A stretch of DNA of 20,191 nucleotides from a virus. This document shows, one piece after another, positions 4,951-20,191 of the stretch (positions are counted from its first letter, which is position 1; each line of letters starts with the position of its first letter). Where the stretch lies: positions 1 through 20,191 of the IMG/VR virus record IMGVR_UViG_3300035691_000048; one strand, given 5' to 3'. The notes beneath the pieces were generated by a model. The model was not told where the DNA came from and ran no database searches. It saw only the letters and a list, made by a program, of their open reading frames with translations. The translations under genes were made by a program, and so were the position numbers.

Positions 4951-5024
4951 TGCTCGCTGGTCCAACGGCACGACACCGGGCTCATAATCCGGGGGACAGG
5001 GTTCGACTCCCTGGCGAGCGACCA
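4951..5024 (+). tRNA. tRNA-Met (CAT)
   Basis: The cloverleaf has acceptor TGCTCGC/GCGAGCG, anticodon loop CTCATAA and T arm CAGGG-TTCGACT-CCCTG, with an encoded CCA at 5022-5024. The weak T1-G72 pair and the G-rich lower anticodon stem are reminiscent of an initiator, while T11-A24 is elongator-like. It could be elongator Met, fMet or, if lysidine-modified, Ile. Confidence 0.85.
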
Positions 5025-5025
5025 C

Positions 5026-5101
5026 GGGGCTCAGAAGACGATCTGGAGATGTCACCAGCTTTGCAAGCTGGAGAGCGCGGGTTCGATTCCCCGGGGCTCC
5101 A
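5026..5101 (+). tRNA. tRNA-Ala (TGC), unusual D arm
   Basis: Acceptor GGGGCTC pairs with GGGCTCC and contains the G3-T70 wobble that marks alanine tRNAs; A73 follows. The anticodon loop TTTGCAA is in a perfect CCAGC/GCTGG stem. The D region is abnormal: the best stem, GACG/TGTC, leaves about two extra bases after the acceptor, and the T stem has one mismatch. No CCA is encoded. Confidence 0.75.
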
Positions 5102-6579: not shown

Positions 6580-7140
6580 GTGGACACGAGGTTTCGCGCC
6601 TTGCCGACGCTCACCGAGGGTGAGCTCAGGGACCTCTACGAGAACCACAACTGGTCGTTCTTCGTTCAGGCGGAGCGGGACCAGGCGACGATCAAGATGG
6701 GCCGCACGTTCGGGCAGGGTGAGCTCTCCTCGATCGCGGACCTGTCAGCGGGAGGGGCGCAGATCACTCCCGCGATCGCGCAGCACTACGGCATCAACCC
6801 GGTACTCGGAGACCTGAGTCGGCAGTACAACTACCCGATCTTCGGGCCGATCGAGACGACGATCCAGCACATCGAGCCGGTCGACCTGTTCGTCTGCTCA
6901 GAGACGCTCGAGCACCTCGAGGACCCAGACCTGGTGCTCGACCTGATCAGGCCGATGACGCGCTACCTGCTGCTCACGACCCCGATCTGGGAAGAGCCGC
7001 ACATGACCGCGCACGGACACATCTGGACGTGGCGACAGGCGGACGTCGACGAGATGCTCAAGGACGCCGGGTACGTCATCAAGGACTTCGAGGAGGTCCT
7101 GATCTTCGGGATCTACCTCGCAGAAGTAGCGGTACCGTAG
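6580..7140 (+). CDS. SAM-dependent methyltransferase-like protein
   Basis: The GTG at 6580 follows aaggagaaca and gives 186 residues. The order of motifs fits a small class I methyltransferase. IADLSAGGAQI near 52-62 matches the SAM-binding glycine loop. VDLFVCSETLEHLEDPD at 101-117 is the acidic-to-ETLEHL strand-helix typical of Methyltransf_11/23 members. YLLLTTP at 129-135 and HGHIWTW at 145-151 fill the later strand and HxxxW positions. The substrate is unknown; DNA, a small molecule and tRNA are all possible, the last suggested only by location. The last ten bases, including the TAG stop, are also the first ten bases of the next tRNA. Confidence 0.7.
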   Translation: MDTRFRALPTLTEGELRDLYENHNWSFFVQAERDQATIKMGRTFGQGELSSIADLSAGGAQITPAIAQHYGINPVLGDLSRQYNYPIFGPIETTIQHIEPVDLFVCSETLEHLEDPDLVLDLIRPMTRYLLLTTPIWEEPHMTAHGHIWTWRQADVDEMLKDAGYVIKDFEEVLIFGIYLAEVAVP

Positions 7141-7203
7141 TGTCAGCGGCGAGCACGCGCCCCTTGTAAGGCCGAAGGCGGGGTTCGATTCCTCGCGGTA
7201 CCT
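7131..7203 (+). tRNA. tRNA-Thr (TGT), overlapping the methyltransferase end
   Basis: Acceptor GGTACCG/CGGTACC is perfect. D stem GTGT/GCAC, anticodon loop CTTGTAA and T arm CGGGG-TTCGATT-CCTCG support it; one anticodon stem pair (C29-C41) is mismatched. The TAG stop of the upstream gene is T8-A9-G10. T73 has no CCA. Confidence 0.88.
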
Positions 7204-7213
7204 CTCAGTTCAC

Positions 7214-7285
7214 GCGGTGCAGGTGTCAACGGCTGCACGCGACCTTGCCATGGTCGAGGAGCGGGTTCAAGCCCCGCGCATCGCT
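7214..7285 (+). tRNA. tRNA-Gly (GCC)
   Basis: Acceptor GCGGTGC/GCATCGC (one wobble), D stem GTGT/GCAC, perfect anticodon stem CGACC/GGTCG around TTGCCAT, and T arm GCGGG-TTCAAGC-CCCGC. T73 fits glycine; CCA is not encoded. Confidence 0.92.
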
Positions 7286-7288
7286 CTC

Positions 7289-7349
7289 GGTAGCACAGCG
7301 TCACCCTCATGGTGGCTACCCCGTGGCCGGACACGGCACCGGGTGACGC
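7289..7349 (+). ncRNA. Large alternative-fold hairpin element
   Basis: GCGTCACCC (7298-7306) pairs over nine bases with GGGTGACGC (7341-7349), enclosing GGTG/CACC and CCGTG-GCCGGA-CACGG. Alternatively GGTAGC (7289-7294) pairs with GCTACC (7315-7320) around CACC/GGTG. The two folds use overlapping bases, so only one can form. It lies between tRNA-Gly and tRNA-Glu with no reading frame of its own. Confidence 0.5.
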
Positions 7350-7354
7350 GACAC

Positions 7355-7428
7355 GGTCTGTTGGTGTAATCGGCTAACACACCACCCTCTCAAGGTGGAG
7401 ACTACCGGTTCAAGTCCGGTACAGACTA
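7355..7428 (+). tRNA. tRNA-Glu (CTC)
   Basis: Acceptor GGTCTGT/ACAGACT, D stem GTGT/ACAC, anticodon stem CCACC/GGTGG around CTCTCAA, and T arm ACCGG-TTCAAGT-CCGGT. A73 is present without CCA. Confidence 0.91.
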
Positions 7429-7436
7429 CGAAGCAT

Positions 7437-7507
7437 CGGGGTGTGGTATAGCGGTAACACACTTGCTTTGGGAGCATGGGTCGGAGGTTCGACTCCTCCC
7501 ACCCCGA
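7437..7507 (+). tRNA. tRNA-Pro (TGG)
   Basis: Acceptor CGGGGTG/CACCCCG is perfect, the T arm is GGAGG-TTCGACT-CCTCC and the anticodon loop is TTTGGGA. The anticodon stem has one T-T mismatch and the D stem one A-C mismatch. A73 is present without CCA. Confidence 0.88.
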
Positions 7508-7541
7508 CTGAACAACACCCATCTGAGGCGGAGGTCTAGTG

Positions 7542-7850
7542 ATGGATGCTGACCCACAGAGACACCGGAAGAAGAAAGACGCTCAGCTCGGAGAGAAGTT
7601 CAACACCGCGAACTATCATCTGAAGAAGATGGTCTGGTTCGACATGATGAAACGTTACGGTGAGAACATCTGTTTTCGTTGCAAAGAAGCGATCGAGACT
7701 GTCGAAGAACTGAGTATCGAACACAAGATCCCGTGGCTGAACAAGCCGAATGCGAAAGAGCTATTCTGGGATCTAAACAACGTCGCATGGTCTCATATAT
7801 CATGCAACAGTAAAGCGGCCCGGCGAGGGTCTGCCATCATACGGCGGTAG
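7542..7850 (+). CDS. HNH endonuclease inside the tRNA array
   Basis: I choose ATG 7542 over GTG 7539 because the ribosome site ggagg (7530-7534) is spaced better; the product has 102 residues. It has a Lys-rich N-terminus, CFRC at 44-47, LSIEHKI with the HNH His at 61, LNNVAW with Asn80, and SHISCN at 84-89, a standard ββα-metal nuclease layout. The gene is visibly richer in A and T than its surroundings, which suggests separate acquisition. Its final codons and TAG stop lie within the next tRNA (7841-7850). It resembles the HNH protein at 10502, so both probably belong to one homing family. Confidence 0.85.
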   Translation: MDADPQRHRKKKDAQLGEKFNTANYHLKKMVWFDMMKRYGENICFRCKEAIETVEELSIEHKIPWLNKPNAKELFWDLNNVAWSHISCNSKAARRGSAIIRR

Positions 7851-7913
7851 CTCAACGGACAGAGTACCCGGCTTCTAACCGGGAGGATGCGGGTTCGACT
7901 CCTGCGCGTCGTG
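7841..7913 (+). tRNA. tRNA-Arg (TCT), overlapping the HNH gene end
   Basis: Acceptor ACGGCGG/GCGTCGT has one G7-G66 mismatch. The anticodon stem CCCGG/CCGGG around CTTCTAA and T arm GCGGG-TTCGACT-CCTGC are good, and G73 suits arginine. T8-A9-G10 (7848-7850) is the HNH stop codon. CCA is not encoded. Confidence 0.88.
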
Positions 7914-7918
7914 CTCAC

Positions 7919-7990
7919 GCTCCGCTCGACTACGGGAAGGTCACCTGCCTTTCAAGCAGGACGGTACCGGTTCGAATCCGGTGCGGAGTA
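7919..7990 (+). tRNA. tRNA-Glu (TTC)
   Basis: Acceptor GCTCCGC/GCGGAGT, D stem GAC/GTC, perfect anticodon stem CCTGC/GCAGG around CTTTCAA, and T arm ACCGG-TTCGAAT-CCGGT. A73 is present without CCA. Confidence 0.92.
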
Positions 7991-8024
7991 CAGAAGATCA
8001 GATCAGGGAAAGGACCTGAGGCAT

Positions 8025-9161
8025 TTGAGAAAGCTCATCGCACTGTTCACCGTCGTGGTTCTCGCCACGCTCGGCCTCGTCGCAGCGCTGTCGCCCGAGG
8101 CGGCGTCCGCTGCACCGACGCCAGTCGTACTGATCGTGCTAGAGAACCACTACGCGAACCACTCGGACGGAGCGAAGGGGATCTACGGCGACCCGAACTC
8201 TCCCTTCATCAACTCGGTCGTGTCTTCGTCCTGCTCGACGACGACGCCCGCGGTCTGCGGCATCGGCTACACTCGCCTGTACGATTACTCGTCGTTGCAC
8301 TCGCTCCCGAACTACCTGGTCCTGACGGGTGGCTACTCCGGCGACCCGAACAACGTCGGGGTCAACGGGTACAAGTGTCAGACCGACGCCACGGCGACAC
8401 CTACCGGGACTCCGGGACCGAACGACTGCTGGGAGGAGCACCAGACCGAGAACAACATCTTCCAGGAGCTGAAGAACAACTCGACCTCGTACGGCTCGCG
8501 ATCCTACCAGGAGTCTATGTCGGCGACGTGCACGGTGTCGAACGACTCGAGCGGACTCTACGTCGTGCGCCACAACCCGGCGCTGTTCTACAACAACCTC
8601 GGCACCGGGTTCTCGTGCGACGGGGCCGGCGGAACGACTGCGATCGACATCAAGCAGCCGGCATCACTTCCGGCTACGCTTCCGAAGCTCACCGTAGAGA
8701 CTCCGAACGTGTGCGACAACATGCACGGGTTGGCAACAGGCTCACCGAACTCAACCTACATCGACGGGTCGACCTGTGCCGCAGGCGACGCGGACGGCAC
8801 CAAGAGGACCGAGTCTGACAAGTGGCTCCAGACCTGGGTGCCGGCGTGGGTCGCCAAGGGTGCGACCGTCGTCATCACGTTCGACGAGGGCACCTCGAAC
8901 AAGTGCGGCGTCGCTGACCCGGTCACCGACATCTGCGGTGACAAGGTATTGACGGTCGTCGCGTCCCCGTCCTACTCGTCGGGCTCGACGGACAACACGG
9001 CCTACGGCGTGTCGCCTACTACGAACGCGTCGGGAGTCTACACTCCCTCGACCTCGCCCGGGTTCTGCAACATCCTGGCGGGGATCGAGACCCACTACGC
9101 GATCACGCCGAATCTCGGCTGCTCGGCGTCGCTCACCGGACCGGTCCTGTCGGTCCCATAA
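8025..9161 (+). CDS. Secreted phosphoesterase (acid phosphatase / phospholipase C-like family)
   Basis: The TTG at 8025 places a signal peptide exactly at the N-terminus and follows aaaggacctgagg, so the longer frame running back through the tRNA is rejected. The product has 378 residues: signal peptide 1-30, ending near AASAA. Motifs of the PF04185-type phosphoesterases then appear in order: VLIVLENH at 35-42, SLPNYLVLTGG at 93-103, YQESM at 161-165, VRHNPALFY at 181-189, TPNVCDNMH at 226-234 and VVITFDEG at 282-289. About ten cysteines suggest disulfides outside the membrane. It would be exported from the infected cell or reach the envelope and hydrolyse a phosphate ester. The substrate (phospholipid, wall polymer or small phosphate ester) is not shown. 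An enzyme gene within a tRNA array is unusual cargo. Confidence 0.75.
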   Translation: MRKLIALFTVVVLATLGLVAALSPEAASAAPTPVVLIVLENHYANHSDGAKGIYGDPNSPFINSVVSSSCSTTTPAVCGIGYTRLYDYSSLHSLPNYLVLTGGYSGDPNNVGVNGYKCQTDATATPTGTPGPNDCWEEHQTENNIFQELKNNSTSYGSRSYQESMSATCTVSNDSSGLYVVRHNPALFYNNLGTGFSCDGAGGTTAIDIKQPASLPATLPKLTVETPNVCDNMHGLATGSPNSTYIDGSTCAAGDADGTKRTESDKWLQTWVPAWVAKGATVVITFDEGTSNKCGVADPVTDICGDKVLTVVASPSYSSGSTDNTAYGVSPTTNASGVYTPSTSPGFCNILAGIETHYAITPNLGCSASLTGPVLSVP

Positions 9162-9176
9162 GACGGAAGGAACTGT

Positions 9177-9386
9177 ATGGCAGAACTCGGAGTGAAGATC
9201 GTGAAGCTCCCCGACGGCACGATCCTGCGGATGGAGCCAGGCACCGACACCGGTGACCTGGAAGTCATCTCGGAGGGTGTCGAGGAGGAGCCGAAGGTCG
9301 TCAAGACGTCGCCTGATCGCGAGGTCGCTGAGCCTGCGAAGGCGAAGCCCGTGAAGCAGGCGGAGTCCAAGACCGCCAAGAAGTAA
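9177..9386 (+). CDS. Small protein with Lys/Ala-rich tail, unknown
   Basis: The ATG at 9177 follows ggaaggaactgt. The 69-residue product has a compact β-like N-terminus (VKIVKLPDGTILRME) and an extended tail rich in Lys, Ala, Pro and Glu that is probably disordered. No family is recognised. It ends 10 bases before tRNA-Val and is probably co-transcribed with the phosphoesterase 15 bases upstream. Confidence 0.6.
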   Translation: MAELGVKIVKLPDGTILRMEPGTDTGDLEVISEGVEEEPKVVKTSPDREVAEPAKAKPVKQAESKTAKK

Positions 9387-9396
9387 CGCAACAGAT

Positions 9397-9471
9397 AGGT
9401 CCTTAGCTCAGCCAGGCCAGAGCCGCTGGTTTACACCCAGTGGGGCGGGGGTTCGAATCCCTCAGGACCTA
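9397..9471 (+). tRNA. tRNA-Val (TAC)
   Basis: Acceptor AGGTCCT/AGGACCT and D stem GCTC/GAGC pair perfectly. Anticodon loop TTTACAC lies in GCTGG/CCAGT and the T arm is GGGGG-TTCGAAT-CCCTC. A73 is present without CCA. Confidence 0.92.
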
Positions 9472-9475
9472 CTAC

Positions 9476-9546
9476 ACTCCTCTCGTCTAATGGCAGGACG
9501 CAGGGCCCTGGACCCTGAGGCTGAGGTTCGACCCCTTGGAGGAGTA
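9476..9546 (+). tRNA. tRNA-Gln (CTG) with C33
   Basis: Acceptor ACTCCTC/GAGGAGT, D stem GTCT/GGAC and anticodon stem CAGGG/CCCTG are sound. The loop is CCCTGGA, so position 33 is C instead of T. The T arm (TGAGG/CCTTG) uses wobble pairs. A73 is present without CCA. Confidence 0.86.
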
Positions 9547-9548
9547 CT

Positions 9549-9618
9549 GCCGGTGACGCTGTGGAGCGTAGCAGCCTCCAAAACTGTCAGCACGTGGGTT
9601 CGACTCCCCGCGCCGGTG
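9549..9618 (+). tRNA. tRNA-Trp (CCA), degenerate
   Basis: Acceptor GCCGGTG pairs with CGCCGGT using wobbles, loop CTCCAAA is the classic Trp loop, and G73 matches Trp identity. D pairing is best as ACGC/GCGT, which crowds positions 8-9. The T stem GTGGG/CCCCG has two mismatches and the anticodon stem has a C31-A39 mismatch. It may be weakened. Confidence 0.75.
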
Positions 9619-9639
9619 CGAAGCAACAAAGGAGGATTC

Positions 9640-9867
9640 GTGTTCAGAGACGTTCACGAAATGACAGCCGATGAGCTTCTTCAGGAGCTAGATCGAGGAA
9701 AGCATCACGGCAAGTCAAATGCAGTTCACCAGATCGAGTTGTTCACCCGTATGGGCGGAGACCCAAACGACCACAACTACGCTCGACTTTCGTTCCTAAC
9801 TAAGGAACTAAGGGAGCGTGGAGTGGCCGTAGGATCGTCGCGTCACTCGGGCATCTGGCTCGATTGA
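9640..9867 (+). CDS. Small winged-helix-like protein
   Basis: The GTG at 9640 follows aaaggaggattc at ideal distance and gives 75 residues. The C-terminal pattern, helices then LTKELRERGVAVGSSRHSGIWL, resembles the recognition helix and wing of small phage helix-turn-helix proteins, which often end in an L..G..I.S...G.WL pattern. The gene is less GC-rich than its neighbours. The stop lies three bases before tRNA-Asn. DNA binding is inference; no partner or site is visible. Confidence 0.55.
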   Translation: MFRDVHEMTADELLQELDRGKHHGKSNAVHQIELFTRMGGDPNDHNYARLSFLTKELRERGVAVGSSRHSGIWLD

Positions 9868-9870
9868 TAT

Positions 9871-9944
9871 TGGGGTGTGGCGCAATCAGGCGGCGCAGCC
9901 GGTTGTTACCCGGAAGGTTGTAGGTTCGATTCCTACCATCCCAG
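9871..9944 (+). tRNA. tRNA-Asn (GTT)
   Basis: Acceptor TGGGGTG/CATCCCA, D stem GCGC/GCGC, anticodon loop TTGTTAC, and T arm GTAGG-TTCGATT-CCTAC. G73 fits asparagine. One anticodon stem end pair is G-A. CCA is not encoded. Confidence 0.91.
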
Positions 9945-9946
9945 CT

Positions 9947-10030
9947 GTGACGGATGCTCGTCTAGTAGAGCGCCGGGTTGTGGCCCCGGTAGGCGTACGC
10001 CGTCAGCGGGTGCAACTCCCGTCCGTCACC
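9947..10030 (+). tRNA. tRNA-His (GTG) with long variable arm
   Basis: Acceptor GTGACGG/CCGTCAC, D stem GCTC/GAGC and perfect anticodon stem CCGGG/CCCGG around TTGTGGC define it, and C73 is the histidine discriminator. Three oddities: the variable region is about 16 bases with a GGCG/CGCC hairpin, the T loop is TGCAACT rather than TTCRANN, and the base before position 1 is T, so no G-1 is encoded. CCA is encoded (10031-10033). Confidence 0.8.
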
Positions 10031-10034
10031 CCAC

Positions 10035-10055
10035 GTTTCACCGCAGCGGTGAAAC
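10035..10055 (+). terminator. Hairpin after tRNA-His (possible terminator or processing site)
   Basis: GTTTCACCGC and GCGGTGAAAC are perfect complements around a central A, forming eight or nine practical pairs. It begins one base after the encoded CCA of tRNA-His. No T-run follows, so termination would need another factor; 3'-end processing is equally possible. Confidence 0.45.
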
Positions 10056-10079
10056 CCGATAGAACCGTGAAAGGAAGAC

Positions 10080-10103
10080 ATGAATGACTACCTAGGAGCC
10101 TGA
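10080..10103 (+). CDS. Possible leader peptide (7 residues)
   Basis: An ATG preceded by aaaggaagac opens a seven-codon frame reading MNDYLGA, ending in TGA. Its last codons lie in the 5' strand of the hairpin that controls the next gene's ribosome site. The strong ribosome site for so short a frame is the main support. Confidence 0.4.
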   Translation: MNDYLGA

Positions 10104-10124
10104 CAGACAGGCTCCGTAAGGAGC
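10095..10124 (+). promoter_or_regulatory. Three-strand RNA switch before the gene at 10129
   Basis: Strand 1 GGAGCCTG (10095-10102) pairs with strand 2 CAGGCTCC (10108-10115). GCTCC of strand 2 can instead pair with strand 3 GGAGC (10120-10124) across a GTAA (GNRA) tetraloop. Strand 3 includes the aaggag ribosome site of the next gene. A ribosome on the leader peptide would cover strand 1 and let strand 2 mask that site. This is inferred from sequence alone. Confidence 0.45.
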
Positions 10125-10128
10125 GTTC

Positions 10129-10314
10129 ATGTCTTCACGAGACTTTCGCAACGCGCGAGCGAAGAAGTCGCAGGAAGCCGCTGCTGATCTTCGCCGCCGA
10201 GGCATCCTCCACGGGATGCGGCAGACCAAGAGCAACGCAGACCCGATGTCCTACCTTCAGCAGAAGCTGGTGGGCTCGGCGAAGTACCAGCGCCTCACCA
10301 ACCAGAAGCGCTGA
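10129..10314 (+). CDS. Small basic protein, unknown
   Basis: The ATG at 10129 has the ribosome site aaggag five bases upstream, lying inside the proposed switch. The product is 61 residues, strongly basic (SSRDFRNARAKK at the start, YQRLTNQKR at the end) and probably helical. It could bind nucleic acid. No family is recognised. Confidence 0.6.
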   Translation: MSSRDFRNARAKKSQEAAADLRRRGILHGMRQTKSNADPMSYLQQKLVGSAKYQRLTNQKR

Positions 10315-10501
10315 CAGACCCGCCCCGGTAGTGCTGGTGGAGGCCGGGGGCGTCGGACCGACGGCGACAGATCAGCTGGCCTACGATGCCAGCATCGGCA
10401 GGACCAACCAGGCTCCAGAATGACCAGACTGACCTGGTGGTACCGATCGGCTCGTAGGGGCGTGAACGTTCCGCCCCGCGAGCCTCAACTTCAGGAGGAA
10501 G
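10315..10501 (+). other. Structured non-coding stretch before HNH gene
   Basis: No convincing gene fits these 187 bases, but they are rich in stems: CGCCCCGG (10321-10328) with 10344-10352; GCTGGC-CTACGAT-GCCAGC (10375-10393), shaped like an anticodon arm with ACG; the ACC/ACCAGG run at 10403-10412 with 10433-10441; and a 12-pair hairpin, GGCTCG and GGGGCG against CGCCCC and CGAGCC (10449-10484). It may be a decayed tRNA region or a structured leader for the HNH gene. Confidence 0.45.
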
Positions 10502-10849
10502 ATGACAAGAGGACCGAACTACTACAAGTGGTGGGTCTTCCAACATCTGACCCGTGAACACGGCAATCTAAACTGCTATCGTTGCGGTATGGAGATTGCT
10601 AGTCCCTTTGAACTCTCTCTTGAGCACAAGATTGCGAAGAGCGTTGATCCTAGTCTCGAGTTTGACTATGACAACATCTCTTGGTCGCATTACATCTGTA
10701 ATGCGGCGCATAGCGGAGAGATGAACAGGGAATCAGGCCACATGGCAAGAGTAGGAAGTTCTGGTGTAGGGAACTGCTATCGCTGGAACATACAACGCGG
10801 TCTTTCTTGTACTTGTGGGTCTCACGCGCCACTGGTGTCAGTGGATTAG
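10502..10849 (+). CDS. HNH endonuclease, second of the array pair
   Basis: The ATG at 10502 follows aggaggaag and gives 115 residues. CYRC at 25-28, LSLEHKI with His42, YDNISW with Asn58 and SHYICN at 62-67 make a complete HNH fold, closely parallel to the protein at 7542 (CFRC, LSIEHKI, LNNVAW, SHISCN). It has a longer C-terminal tail with extra cysteines. The DNA is A/T-rich relative to the neighbours. The last 24 bases of the frame, including the TAG, lie inside tRNA-Gly(TCC). It is probably a free-standing homing nuclease that targets or sits beside tRNA genes. Confidence 0.85.
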   Translation: MTRGPNYYKWWVFQHLTREHGNLNCYRCGMEIASPFELSLEHKIAKSVDPSLEFDYDNISWSHYICNAAHSGEMNRESGHMARVGSSGVGNCYRWNIQRGLSCTCGSHAPLVSVD

Positions 10850-10899
10850 CATATCTGCCTTCCAAGCAGACGGGGTCGGTTCAAATCCGACGTGGCGCT
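10826..10899 (+). tRNA. tRNA-Gly (TCC), overlapping the HNH gene end
   Basis: Acceptor GCGCCAC/GTGGCGC is perfect, anticodon stem TCTGC/GCAGA holds CTTCCAA, and the T arm is GTCGG-TTCAAAT-CCGAC. T73 fits glycine; CCA is not encoded. It is the last tRNA I can find in the window. Confidence 0.91.
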
Positions 10900-10924
10900 C
10901 TCCCAAACCTACCCGGAGGAACTG

Positions 10925-19295: not shown

Positions 19296-20191
19296 TTGCG
19301 GGCACTCATTACAGGCATCAACGGCCAGGACGGCTCGTACCTCGCCGACTATCTGCTCGATCGAGGATACGAGGTCCACGGCACGATCCGCCGCTCCTCG
19401 ACTCCGAACCTACAGAGGATCGAGCACCTTCGAGATCGCGTCACGCTGTACTTCGCTGACCTGACCGACCCCTCGAGCCTTCACCGAGCGGTCGCCCAGG
19501 CGCAGCCCGATCACGTCTACAACCTCGCCGCGATGTCCGACGTGCGCGTCAGCTTCGACACGCCGATGTACGCCGCACAGGCCGACGCGGTGGGTGCCCT
19601 CGGGATCCTCGAGGCAGTTCGGTTGGAACGCCCCGAGGCCCGAGTGTACCAGGCCGGCTCCTCAGAGATGTTCGGGATGAACCCCGACGTTCCCTGCAAC
19701 GAAGACAGCCGCTTCTACCCCGGCTCACCCTACGCAGCCGCGAAGGTCATGGCGTATCACTGCGCCATCAACTACCGTGAGGCGTTCGGGATGTTCGTGT
19801 CGAACGGCGTCCTGTTCAACCACGAGTCGGAGCGGCGCGGAGTCGAGTTCGTCACGCGCAAGATCACGCGCTACATCGGAGCCCTCAAGCGGGGTGAGAC
19901 GACTCGCCTGCTCGAGCTCGGTGCGCTGACGCCGTCACGCGACTGGGGCTACGCCCCGGACTACGTGCAGGCGATGGTCCTCATGCTCGAGGCCGATCAA
20001 CCCGACGACTACGTCGTCGCCACGGGCGAGACTCACTCAGTGTTCGAGTTCGTCTCCGCAGCCTTCGAGCACGCCGAACTGGACTGGTCTGAGCACGTCG
20101 TCTCGAATCAGTACGAGCTCTTGCGTCCGACTGACCCGCCGGTGCTACTCGGAAACCCGTTCAAGATCCAGACGTACCTCGGCTGGAAGCC
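19296..20191 (+). CDS. gmd: GDP-mannose 4,6-dehydratase (partial, runs off the window)
   Basis: The TTG at 19296 follows the strong site aaaggaggagac. The 298 residues present show a short-chain dehydrogenase with the GMD pattern: ALITGINGQDGSYLADYLL with the NADP loop at 7-13, IRRSST, LYFADLTDPSSL, VYNLAAMSDVRVSF, AGSSEMFG at 120-127 with the catalytic Ser and Glu, and YAAAK at 146-150 with the Tyr/Lys pair. It then has LFNHESERRG, VTRKIT and RDWGYAPDYVQAM, typical of GMD substrate binding. The enzyme converts GDP-mannose to GDP-4-keto-6-deoxymannose, the precursor of GDP-fucose, -rhamnose and related sugars. The C-terminus is outside the window. Confidence 0.9.
   Translation, partial: MRALITGINGQDGSYLADYLLDRGYEVHGTIRRSSTPNLQRIEHLRDRVTLYFADLTDPSSLHRAVAQAQPDHVYNLAAMSDVRVSFDTPMYAAQADAVGALGILEAVRLERPEARVYQAGSSEMFGMNPDVPCNEDSRFYPGSPYAAAKVMAYHCAINYREAFGMFVSNGVLFNHESERRGVEFVTRKITRYIGALKRGETTRLLELGALTPSRDWGYAPDYVQAMVLMLEADQPDDYVVATGETHSVFEFVSAAFEHAELDWSEHVVSNQYELLRPTDPPVLLGNPFKIQTYLGWK

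Follow-up and report, generated by a model that had tools for sequence, protein, structure and literature searches.

Overlaps between protein and tRNA genes

The locus raises the question of how protein genes in a viral tRNA array came to end inside the tRNA genes that follow them, and whose stop codons they use. The window (the whole stretch of DNA analysed, 20,191 nt, IMG/VR record IMGVR_UViG_3300035691_000048) contains three such genes: a methyltransferase-like ORF and two genes of HNH type, named here HNH1 and HNH2. The features concerned are the following:

6580..7140, plus strand: methyltransferase-like ORF, 186 aa; its final two codons and stop lie within tRNA-Thr
7131..7204, plus strand: tRNA-Thr(tgt), found by ARAGORN; Rfam tRNA score 43.7 bits
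7138..7140, plus strand: TAG stop of the methyltransferase-like ORF, nt 8–10 of tRNA-Thr
7542..7850, plus strand: HNH1, putative free-standing homing-type HNH endonuclease, 102 aa, with a short C-terminal tail
7841..7914, plus strand: tRNA-Arg(tct), found by ARAGORN; Rfam tRNA score 54.5 bits
7848..7850, plus strand: TAG stop of HNH1, nt 8–10 of tRNA-Arg
9177..9386, plus strand: contrasting array ORF ending at a TAA of its own, 10 nt 5' of tRNA-Val
9640..9867, plus strand: contrasting array ORF ending at a TGA of its own, 3 nt 5' of tRNA-Asn; GC 0.531
10502..10849, plus strand: HNH2, a member of the same HNH family as HNH1, 115 aa, extending 24 nt into tRNA-Gly
10826..10900, plus strand: tRNA-Gly(tcc), found by ARAGORN; Rfam tRNA score 49.3 bits
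10847..10849, plus strand: TAG stop of HNH2, nt 22–24 of tRNA-Gly

All three tRNA genes exceeded the Rfam tRNA cut-off of 29 bits. Direct reading of the sequence confirmed the claim of the first-pass annotation that the three genes, ending at 7140, 7850 and 10849, possess no stop of their own: in each, the first in-frame stop is located inside the next tRNA and no earlier one is present. With the ARAGORN starts at 7131 and 7841, the methyltransferase-like ORF and HNH1 indeed end at T8-A9-G10 of the following tRNA, and HNH2 reads 24 bases into tRNA-Gly before meeting TAG, also as claimed. The tRNA encodes two residues and the stop for the methyltransferase-like ORF (VP*), two and the stop for HNH1, and seven and the stop for HNH2. 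These are real genes or at least coding-biased ORFs rather than chance ones, since HNH1 and HNH2 match the protein family phrog_23251 (E-values of 3e-23 and 7e-7, respectively) and the methyltransferase-like ORF has a strong coding bias.

The latter ORF resembles the remainder of the phage in composition (GC 0.631, GC3 0.90). Its assignment relies on a weak Pfam match to Methyltransf_23 (PF13489; E-value 0.002, below the cut-off), searches of phage genomes, viral contigs and genomes of bacteria detected no relatives, and the AlphaFold single-sequence model (pLDDT 41) was too poor for use.

Properties of the two HNH genes

HNH1 and HNH2 are 38% identical to each other, and HNH1 is about 38–51% identical to family members from phages. 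An alignment of eight sequences, both window genes included, had the residues C45, C48, E61, H62, N81, H86, C89 and N90 invariant, and the catalytic and zinc-site residues of HNH1 were intact; both proteins are predicted to be active. Their base composition is foreign, with a GC of 0.495 in HNH1 and 0.491 in HNH2 vs 0.629 in the window. The start codon of HNH1 is probably ATG at 7542 rather than GTG at 7539. HNH1 is located between tRNA-Pro and tRNA-Arg on the same strand, while HNH2 adjoins a tRNA (tRNA-Gly) at its 3' side only: its 5' neighbors are a protein gene and non-coding DNA, and tRNA-His lies more than 450 nt upstream. The part of the HNH1 tail outside the tRNA, at 11 aa, is unusually short compared to the family median of about 54 aa, and it lacks the module that follows the HNH core towards the C-terminus, which is often of the Cys-containing HGT..GCRC..C type. 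The tail of HNH2 also contains Cys residues but differs from that type. Short tails were also present in L036, L060 and Vibrio phage Ceto. No relatives of HNH2 alone were found in the viral contigs searched.

The HNH family among tRNA genes of other phages

Annotated relatives of HNH1 and HNH2 were found between tRNA genes in Felixounavirus, Vibrio phages 1.007.O and Ceto, Leptolyngbya phage Lbo-JY46, Pectobacterium Ounavirinae, the crAss-like phage cr126_1 and Acinetobacter phage AM24. By sequence, HNH1 and HNH2 belong to a family of free-standing HNH endonucleases living between tRNA genes of unrelated phages. A scan of viral contigs revealed a same-strand tRNA within 500 nt at 45 of 80 family loci, 18 of the 80 ending inside the next tRNA. 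When all tRNA-adjacent HNH ORFs were counted and near-duplicates removed, 49 were left, of which 14 (two of them from the window) ended inside the next tRNA, and AM24 provided a further overlapping case. A borrowed stop inside a tRNA is thus a recurrent property of the family. The tRNAs overlapped or adjoined were those for Leu, Thr, Gly, Ile, Cys, Ala, Arg, Asn, Val and Phe, and because these identities differ, the insertions are mostly separate events. The remaining 35 of the 49 kept their own stop, in many cases only a few bases 5' of the tRNA. Relatives with a stop of their own had been named in the first-pass annotation as potential evidence against insertion, but those found are at other insertion sites and do not contradict it. 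A general 3' truncation of the overlapping members was considered and rejected, their tail lengths not differing from those of the non-overlapping ones (p 0.65).

That tRNA gene clusters of phages contain HNH endonuclease genes is already known, and these genes have been proposed to spread such clusters (Morgado and Vicente, 2019, PMC6409571). HNH1 and HNH2 resemble those genes as free-standing HNH genes among phage tRNA genes with phrog_23251 matches, while the word "overlap" is absent from the text of that paper, and its available passages say nothing of genes that terminate within a following tRNA. Also known is SegB of phages T4 and T6, a free-standing homing endonuclease gene between tRNA genes, which in T4 sits between tRNA-Arg and tRNA-Ile and drives inheritance or amplification of the tRNA region (PMC2988022, PMC13096335). 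SegB, however, belongs to the GIY-YIG type, whereas HNH1 and HNH2 are HNH proteins lacking GIY-YIG; the resemblance is in location only, and a shared stop codon is not described for SegB in the available parts of these two papers. A further precedent is AM24_055 (KY000079), an HNH homing endonuclease of the same family in the gammaproteobacterial phage AM24, whose CDS was annotated by the depositors as overlapping tRNA-Phe by 15 nt; its stop occupies tRNA nt 13–15 and includes a base absent from gene-less relatives. No report of phage genes with stops inside tRNAs, or of a recurrent borrowed stop, was found in the literature searched, most subscription journals being outside this search.

Position of the stop within the tRNA

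The first-pass annotation suggested that the conserved TAG of the tRNA serves as the stop. This did not hold at the family level: the stop falls wherever the frame first meets one, from nt 2 to nt 63 in the overlapping members, in line with the first in-frame stops over 679 distinct phage tRNAs. A stop at nt 8–10 is present in 46% of these tRNAs and accounts for 305 of roughly 1365 first in-tRNA stops (about 22%), and its use by two out of three window genes is not significant (about 0.12). T8-A9-G10 was accordingly rejected as a special signal, being merely the commonest in-frame stop.

Junctions in gene-carrying and gene-less phages

No gene-less relative of the window's array was present in the collections searched. 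The nearest terminase relatives of the window phage have no tRNAs at the array site, and in G002, a terminase relative that does possess an array, the latter is located elsewhere and has no obvious genes between its tRNAs. The comparison of phages with and without the gene, proposed in the first-pass annotation, was made with other family members, and in three such pairings the junction was at most about 2 nt from the tRNA 5' end. When AM24, the only overlapping case among them, is aligned with the gene-less phages Bestia, YMC13/03/R2096, Herod, Mithridates and Ab15, homology starts again at nt 1 of tRNA-Phe. The single tRNA change common to all five comparisons, and the only difference from Bestia in this tRNA, is G13>T, which creates the stop used. 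Homology between L103 and L106 resumes at about nt -2 of tRNA-Arg, the next 350 nt being 100% identical, and the junction in Arno18 vs Arno162 and Wc4 is at the 5' end of tRNA-Tyr. The gene-less relatives have short tRNA–tRNA spacers, the extra DNA being the whole HNH gene, and its presence or absence in closely related phages is consistent with homing. For the L045, L103 and L034 arrays, the search for related phages gave tRNA-sized matches only. The claimed insertion directly upstream of a tRNA was thus supported for the HNH genes, through junctions of family members in other phages; the methyltransferase overlap may have arisen either by insertion or by deletion.

Origin of the overlaps

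The reading that we consider probable, judging from the sequence comparisons, is that HNH1 and HNH2 are homing-type genes inserted against the 5' end of a tRNA and terminated by a stop within it; by analogy, they would have arisen like the family members elsewhere. The host array would be that of an actinophage-like virus, and each gene would have been inserted with its 3' junction directly against the 5' end of the tRNA that follows. Left without a stop codon by this insertion, the gene would be terminated by whichever in-frame stop comes first in that tRNA. Such an overlap would be tolerated because about two thirds of the reading frames that run into a phage tRNA encounter a stop within it, so that only a few residues are added and the tRNA stays intact. 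Cleavage by RNase P at the 5' end of the tRNA would remove the stop from the mRNA, full-length HNH protein would then come from unprocessed transcripts only, and its expression would be low. Processing of the tRNA by RNase P would plausibly compete with translation of the final codons, as the geometry implies.

A somewhat unlikely alternative is that the endonuclease gene and the downstream tRNA form one mobile unit, in which the resident tRNA is cut and a resistant allele is carried or acquired; the shared stop would physically tie the two together. In Felixounavirus and Pectobacterium phages the tRNA downstream of the gene is indeed of another allele than in gene-less phages. The tRNA-Asp of gene-carrying and gene-less Felixounavirus phages is about 55% identical between the classes (97% and 85–95% within them), while the DNA directly beyond it is near-identical. 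The 66% identity of tRNA-Thr between Arno18/Arno162 and Wc4, the single D-stem change A11>C in tRNA-Tyr of Arno18 and the G13>T of AM24 point the same way, and the spread of neighboring tRNAs by free-standing endonucleases, SegB for example, is known (PMC6409571, PMC2988022). Against this, L103 and L106 share a 100% identical downstream tRNA-Arg and differ instead in the upstream tRNA-Leu, and the Leu2, Arg2, His and Ala tRNAs of the Pectobacterium arrays also differ without an adjacent gene.

Neutral small deletions of the gene–tRNA spacer could have produced all three overlaps, with insertion playing no role. This is unlikely, since the gene-less relatives of HNH genes differ by a whole gene and not by a spacer, although the other array ORFs ending 3 and 10 nt before a tRNA, the native GC and probably natural C-terminus of the methyltransferase-like ORF, and the non-HNH-family ORFs ending inside tRNAs in other arrays (unfiltered for coding, some of them other HNH types) all speak for it. 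Less probable again is a regulatory device selected for low endonuclease expression, where RNase P would generate a non-stop mRNA whose product is tagged or lost: the RNase P site precedes the stop by 2–7 codons in all three window genes, and T4 endonuclease genes are known to be kept at low expression through RNA structure and processing (PMC2988022), but about 70% of the HNH family has no overlap and the spread of stop positions is that of random frames. The most doubtful of these alternatives would make the gene and the downstream tRNA a coupled selfish unit, the tRNA acting as cut-resistant target and stop provider and RNase P limiting the endonuclease, with G13>T in AM24 supplying the stop.

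Implications

Annotators often avoid overlaps between CDS and tRNA genes, and genes borrowing a tRNA stop are for this reason easily missed or mis-trimmed. The borrowed stop explains how such genes can be accommodated where tRNA genes are separated by only a few bases, and it provides a testable case of a single RNA in which the end of an mRNA doubles as the start of a tRNA. The family offers natural comparisons for the entry of homing endonucleases into phage tRNA arrays and for the reshaping of these arrays.

Termination of three protein genes inside tRNA genes

The window (20,191 bases of a virus record), whose terminase was similar in sequence comparison to those of actinobacterial phages, contained 25 tRNAs detected by ARAGORN between positions 4951 and 10900. 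Two further tRNAs were missed by this program: tRNA-Ala(tgc) at 5028-5099 (31.2 bits, exceeding the Rfam cut-off) and a weak candidate for tRNA-Trp(cca) at 9549-9618 (22 bits, under the cut-off); if both are counted, the array would cover all 20 amino acids. A protein gene was followed by a tRNA at six places, with an overlap in three, abutment in two and an 85-nt gap in one. The genes relevant here are:

6580-7140, methyltransferase-like ORF, TAG at nt 8-10 of tRNA-Thr (7131)
7542-7850, HNH endonuclease gene HNH1, TAG at nt 8-10 of tRNA-Arg (7841)
10502-10849, HNH endonuclease gene HNH2, TAG at nt 22-24 of tRNA-Gly (10826)
9177-9386, array gene with its own stop, ending 10 nt 5' of a tRNA
9640-9867, array gene with its own stop, ending 3 nt 5' of a tRNA

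The ORF and tRNA coordinates bear out the first-pass annotation, according to which the methyltransferase (7140) and HNH1 (7850) end on T8-A9-G10 of the next tRNA, HNH2 runs 24 nt into tRNA-Gly and none of them has its own stop: no in-frame stop preceded the tRNA TAG in any of the three genes, and the tRNAs had good Rfam scores (tRNA-Thr 43.7, tRNA-Arg 54.5 and tRNA-Gly 49.3 bits). Among 679 distinct tRNAs taken from the fetched loci, 67% of the reading frames hit a stop within the tRNA, so that a gene entering a tRNA usually terminates inside. The stops most commonly ended at nt 10 (305 cases), next at nt 15 (166), then at nt 21-24 and 37-39, and 46% of the tRNAs had a stop codon at 8-10. T8-A9-G10 is thus merely the likeliest stop site and its special status was rejected, two of three genes ending there being unremarkable; the real feature is the absence of an own stop in the three genes.

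HNH1 and HNH2 both matched phrog_23251, and in the alignment the Cys, His and Asn positions that are invariant across family members were intact in both. Judged by base composition (GC 0.495 and 0.491, respectively, inside a window of 0.629), both are likely imports. The methyltransferase-like gene was phage-like (GC 0.631, GC3 0.90) and had only a weak match to Methyltransf_23; no relatives were found in phages, viral contigs or bacterial genomes. The array also included a phosphoesterase-family protein (8022-9161; PF04185, E 8e-6) with an apparent N-terminal signal sequence, and the record ended, beyond the capsid gene, with an ORF (19296-20189) resembling, by eye, GDP-mannose 4,6-dehydratase or a related sugar-nucleotide enzyme.

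HNH family members in other tRNA arrays

Phage relatives of HNH1 were located between tRNA genes in Felixounavirus, Vibrio phages 1.007.O and Ceto, a Leptolyngbya phage, Pectobacterium phages, a crAss-like phage and Acinetobacter phage AM24, while the relative in Aeromonas LAh_9 adjoined a tRNA cluster. When viral contigs were searched with an alignment as query, 80 loci were recovered; in 45 a tRNA on the same strand lay no more than 500 nt away, and in 18 the stop fell inside the next tRNA. Over all loci, 14 of 49 tRNA-adjacent family ORFs, non-redundant by a simple similarity filter, ended inside a tRNA, HNH1 and HNH2 among them. Another overlapping member is AM24_055, whose overlap was annotated by its depositors. 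The stops ended at nt 2, 6, 10, 10, 10, 15, 15, 18, 22, 23, 23, 24, 27, 36 and 63, and the tRNAs concerned were of diverse types. The overlapping members were not shorter than the others. In a rough comparison, based on ORFs unfiltered for coding, non-HNH ORFs of other arrays likewise terminated in tRNAs. HNH-like ORFs of an apparently different type, with a C-terminal 'NCH' motif, also terminated in a tRNA in three fetched loci (L053 4634-4981, nt 15; L060 1528-1953, nt 15; L110 4009-4452, nt 10).

Junctions in gene-carrying and gene-less phages

Five comparisons of gene-present with gene-absent phages were possible, among which only AM24 had an overlapping gene. Its HNH gene lies just 5' of tRNA-Phe (2334-2408 of locus L124), and homology to the gene-less Bestia, YMC13/03/R2096, Herod, Mithridates and Ab15 restarted at nt 1 of this tRNA. 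Relative to all five, AM24 had G13 changed to T, the sole tRNA-Phe difference from Bestia; T13 creates the TAG at 13-15 that terminates the HNH gene, and without it the stop would come at 22-24. In free-energy folding, a weak indication that ignores modified bases and proteins, the G13 form gave a cloverleaf and the T13 form did not.

In the other pairs, the extra DNA of L103 versus L106 was an HNH gene between tRNA-Leu and tRNA-Arg; homology restarted at about nt -2 of tRNA-Arg, the next 350 nt were identical, and the upstream tRNA-Leu differed. Compared with Arno162 and Wc4, Pectobacterium phage Arno18 had orf68 inserted between tRNA-Met and tRNA-Tyr; the junction coincided with the tRNA-Tyr 5' end, and a single base differed in this tRNA. 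In gene-less Felixounavirus phages, tRNA-Tyr and tRNA-Asp were separated by about six bases; the gene-carrying ones had the HNH gene plus a tRNA-Asp only about 55% identical to the gene-less form, immediately followed by near-identical DNA. Downstream of orf72 (Arno18 and Arno162 versus Wc4), tRNA-Thr was 66% identical.

Insertion right upstream of a tRNA, proposed at first pass for the window's genes, is supported for the HNH genes by family members elsewhere; for the window's own array, no gene-less relative was found among the nearest terminase relatives. The nearest of these with tRNAs, G002, had a 19-tRNA array (locus L027, 5420-7556) without obvious protein genes between the tRNAs and about 50 kb from the terminase, so arrays may shift genome position in this group.

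Possible mechanism

The Felixounavirus and orf72/Wc4 sequences suggest that the tRNA may also be the cleavage target, the gene travelling with a resistant tRNA allele, and the AM24 and Arno18 orf68 cases perhaps point the same way. L103 versus L106, however, argues against a general rule of this kind, and other tRNAs in such arrays vary too. In Arno18, Arno162 and Wc4, the Leu2, Arg2, Ala and His tRNAs, none of which adjoins an endonuclease gene, were strongly divergent in otherwise near-identical arrays, indicating frequent tRNA allele replacement.

Best supported is HNH entry at the tRNA 5' end combined with a tRNA-supplied stop. The pairing of HNH genes with tRNA arrays is already known: PMC6409571 reports such genes from clusters of phage tRNA genes and suggests that they may help tRNAs to spread. 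SegB of T4, likewise sited between tRNA genes but a GIY-YIG rather than an HNH enzyme, spreads or amplifies tRNA regions, according to PMC2988022 and PMC13096335. A literature search, with most subscription journals outside its range, found no description of a tRNA-supplied stop for phage genes, and both the repeated borrowing of a stop and the evidence from its junctions appear to be new. Genes of the HNH family would enter short tRNA-array spacers with the 3' junction at or beside the tRNA 5' end and, where their own stop is lost, the tRNA would supply one. Judging from this geometry and from known tRNA processing, RNase P, by cutting 5' of nt 1, would strip the stop from the mRNA.
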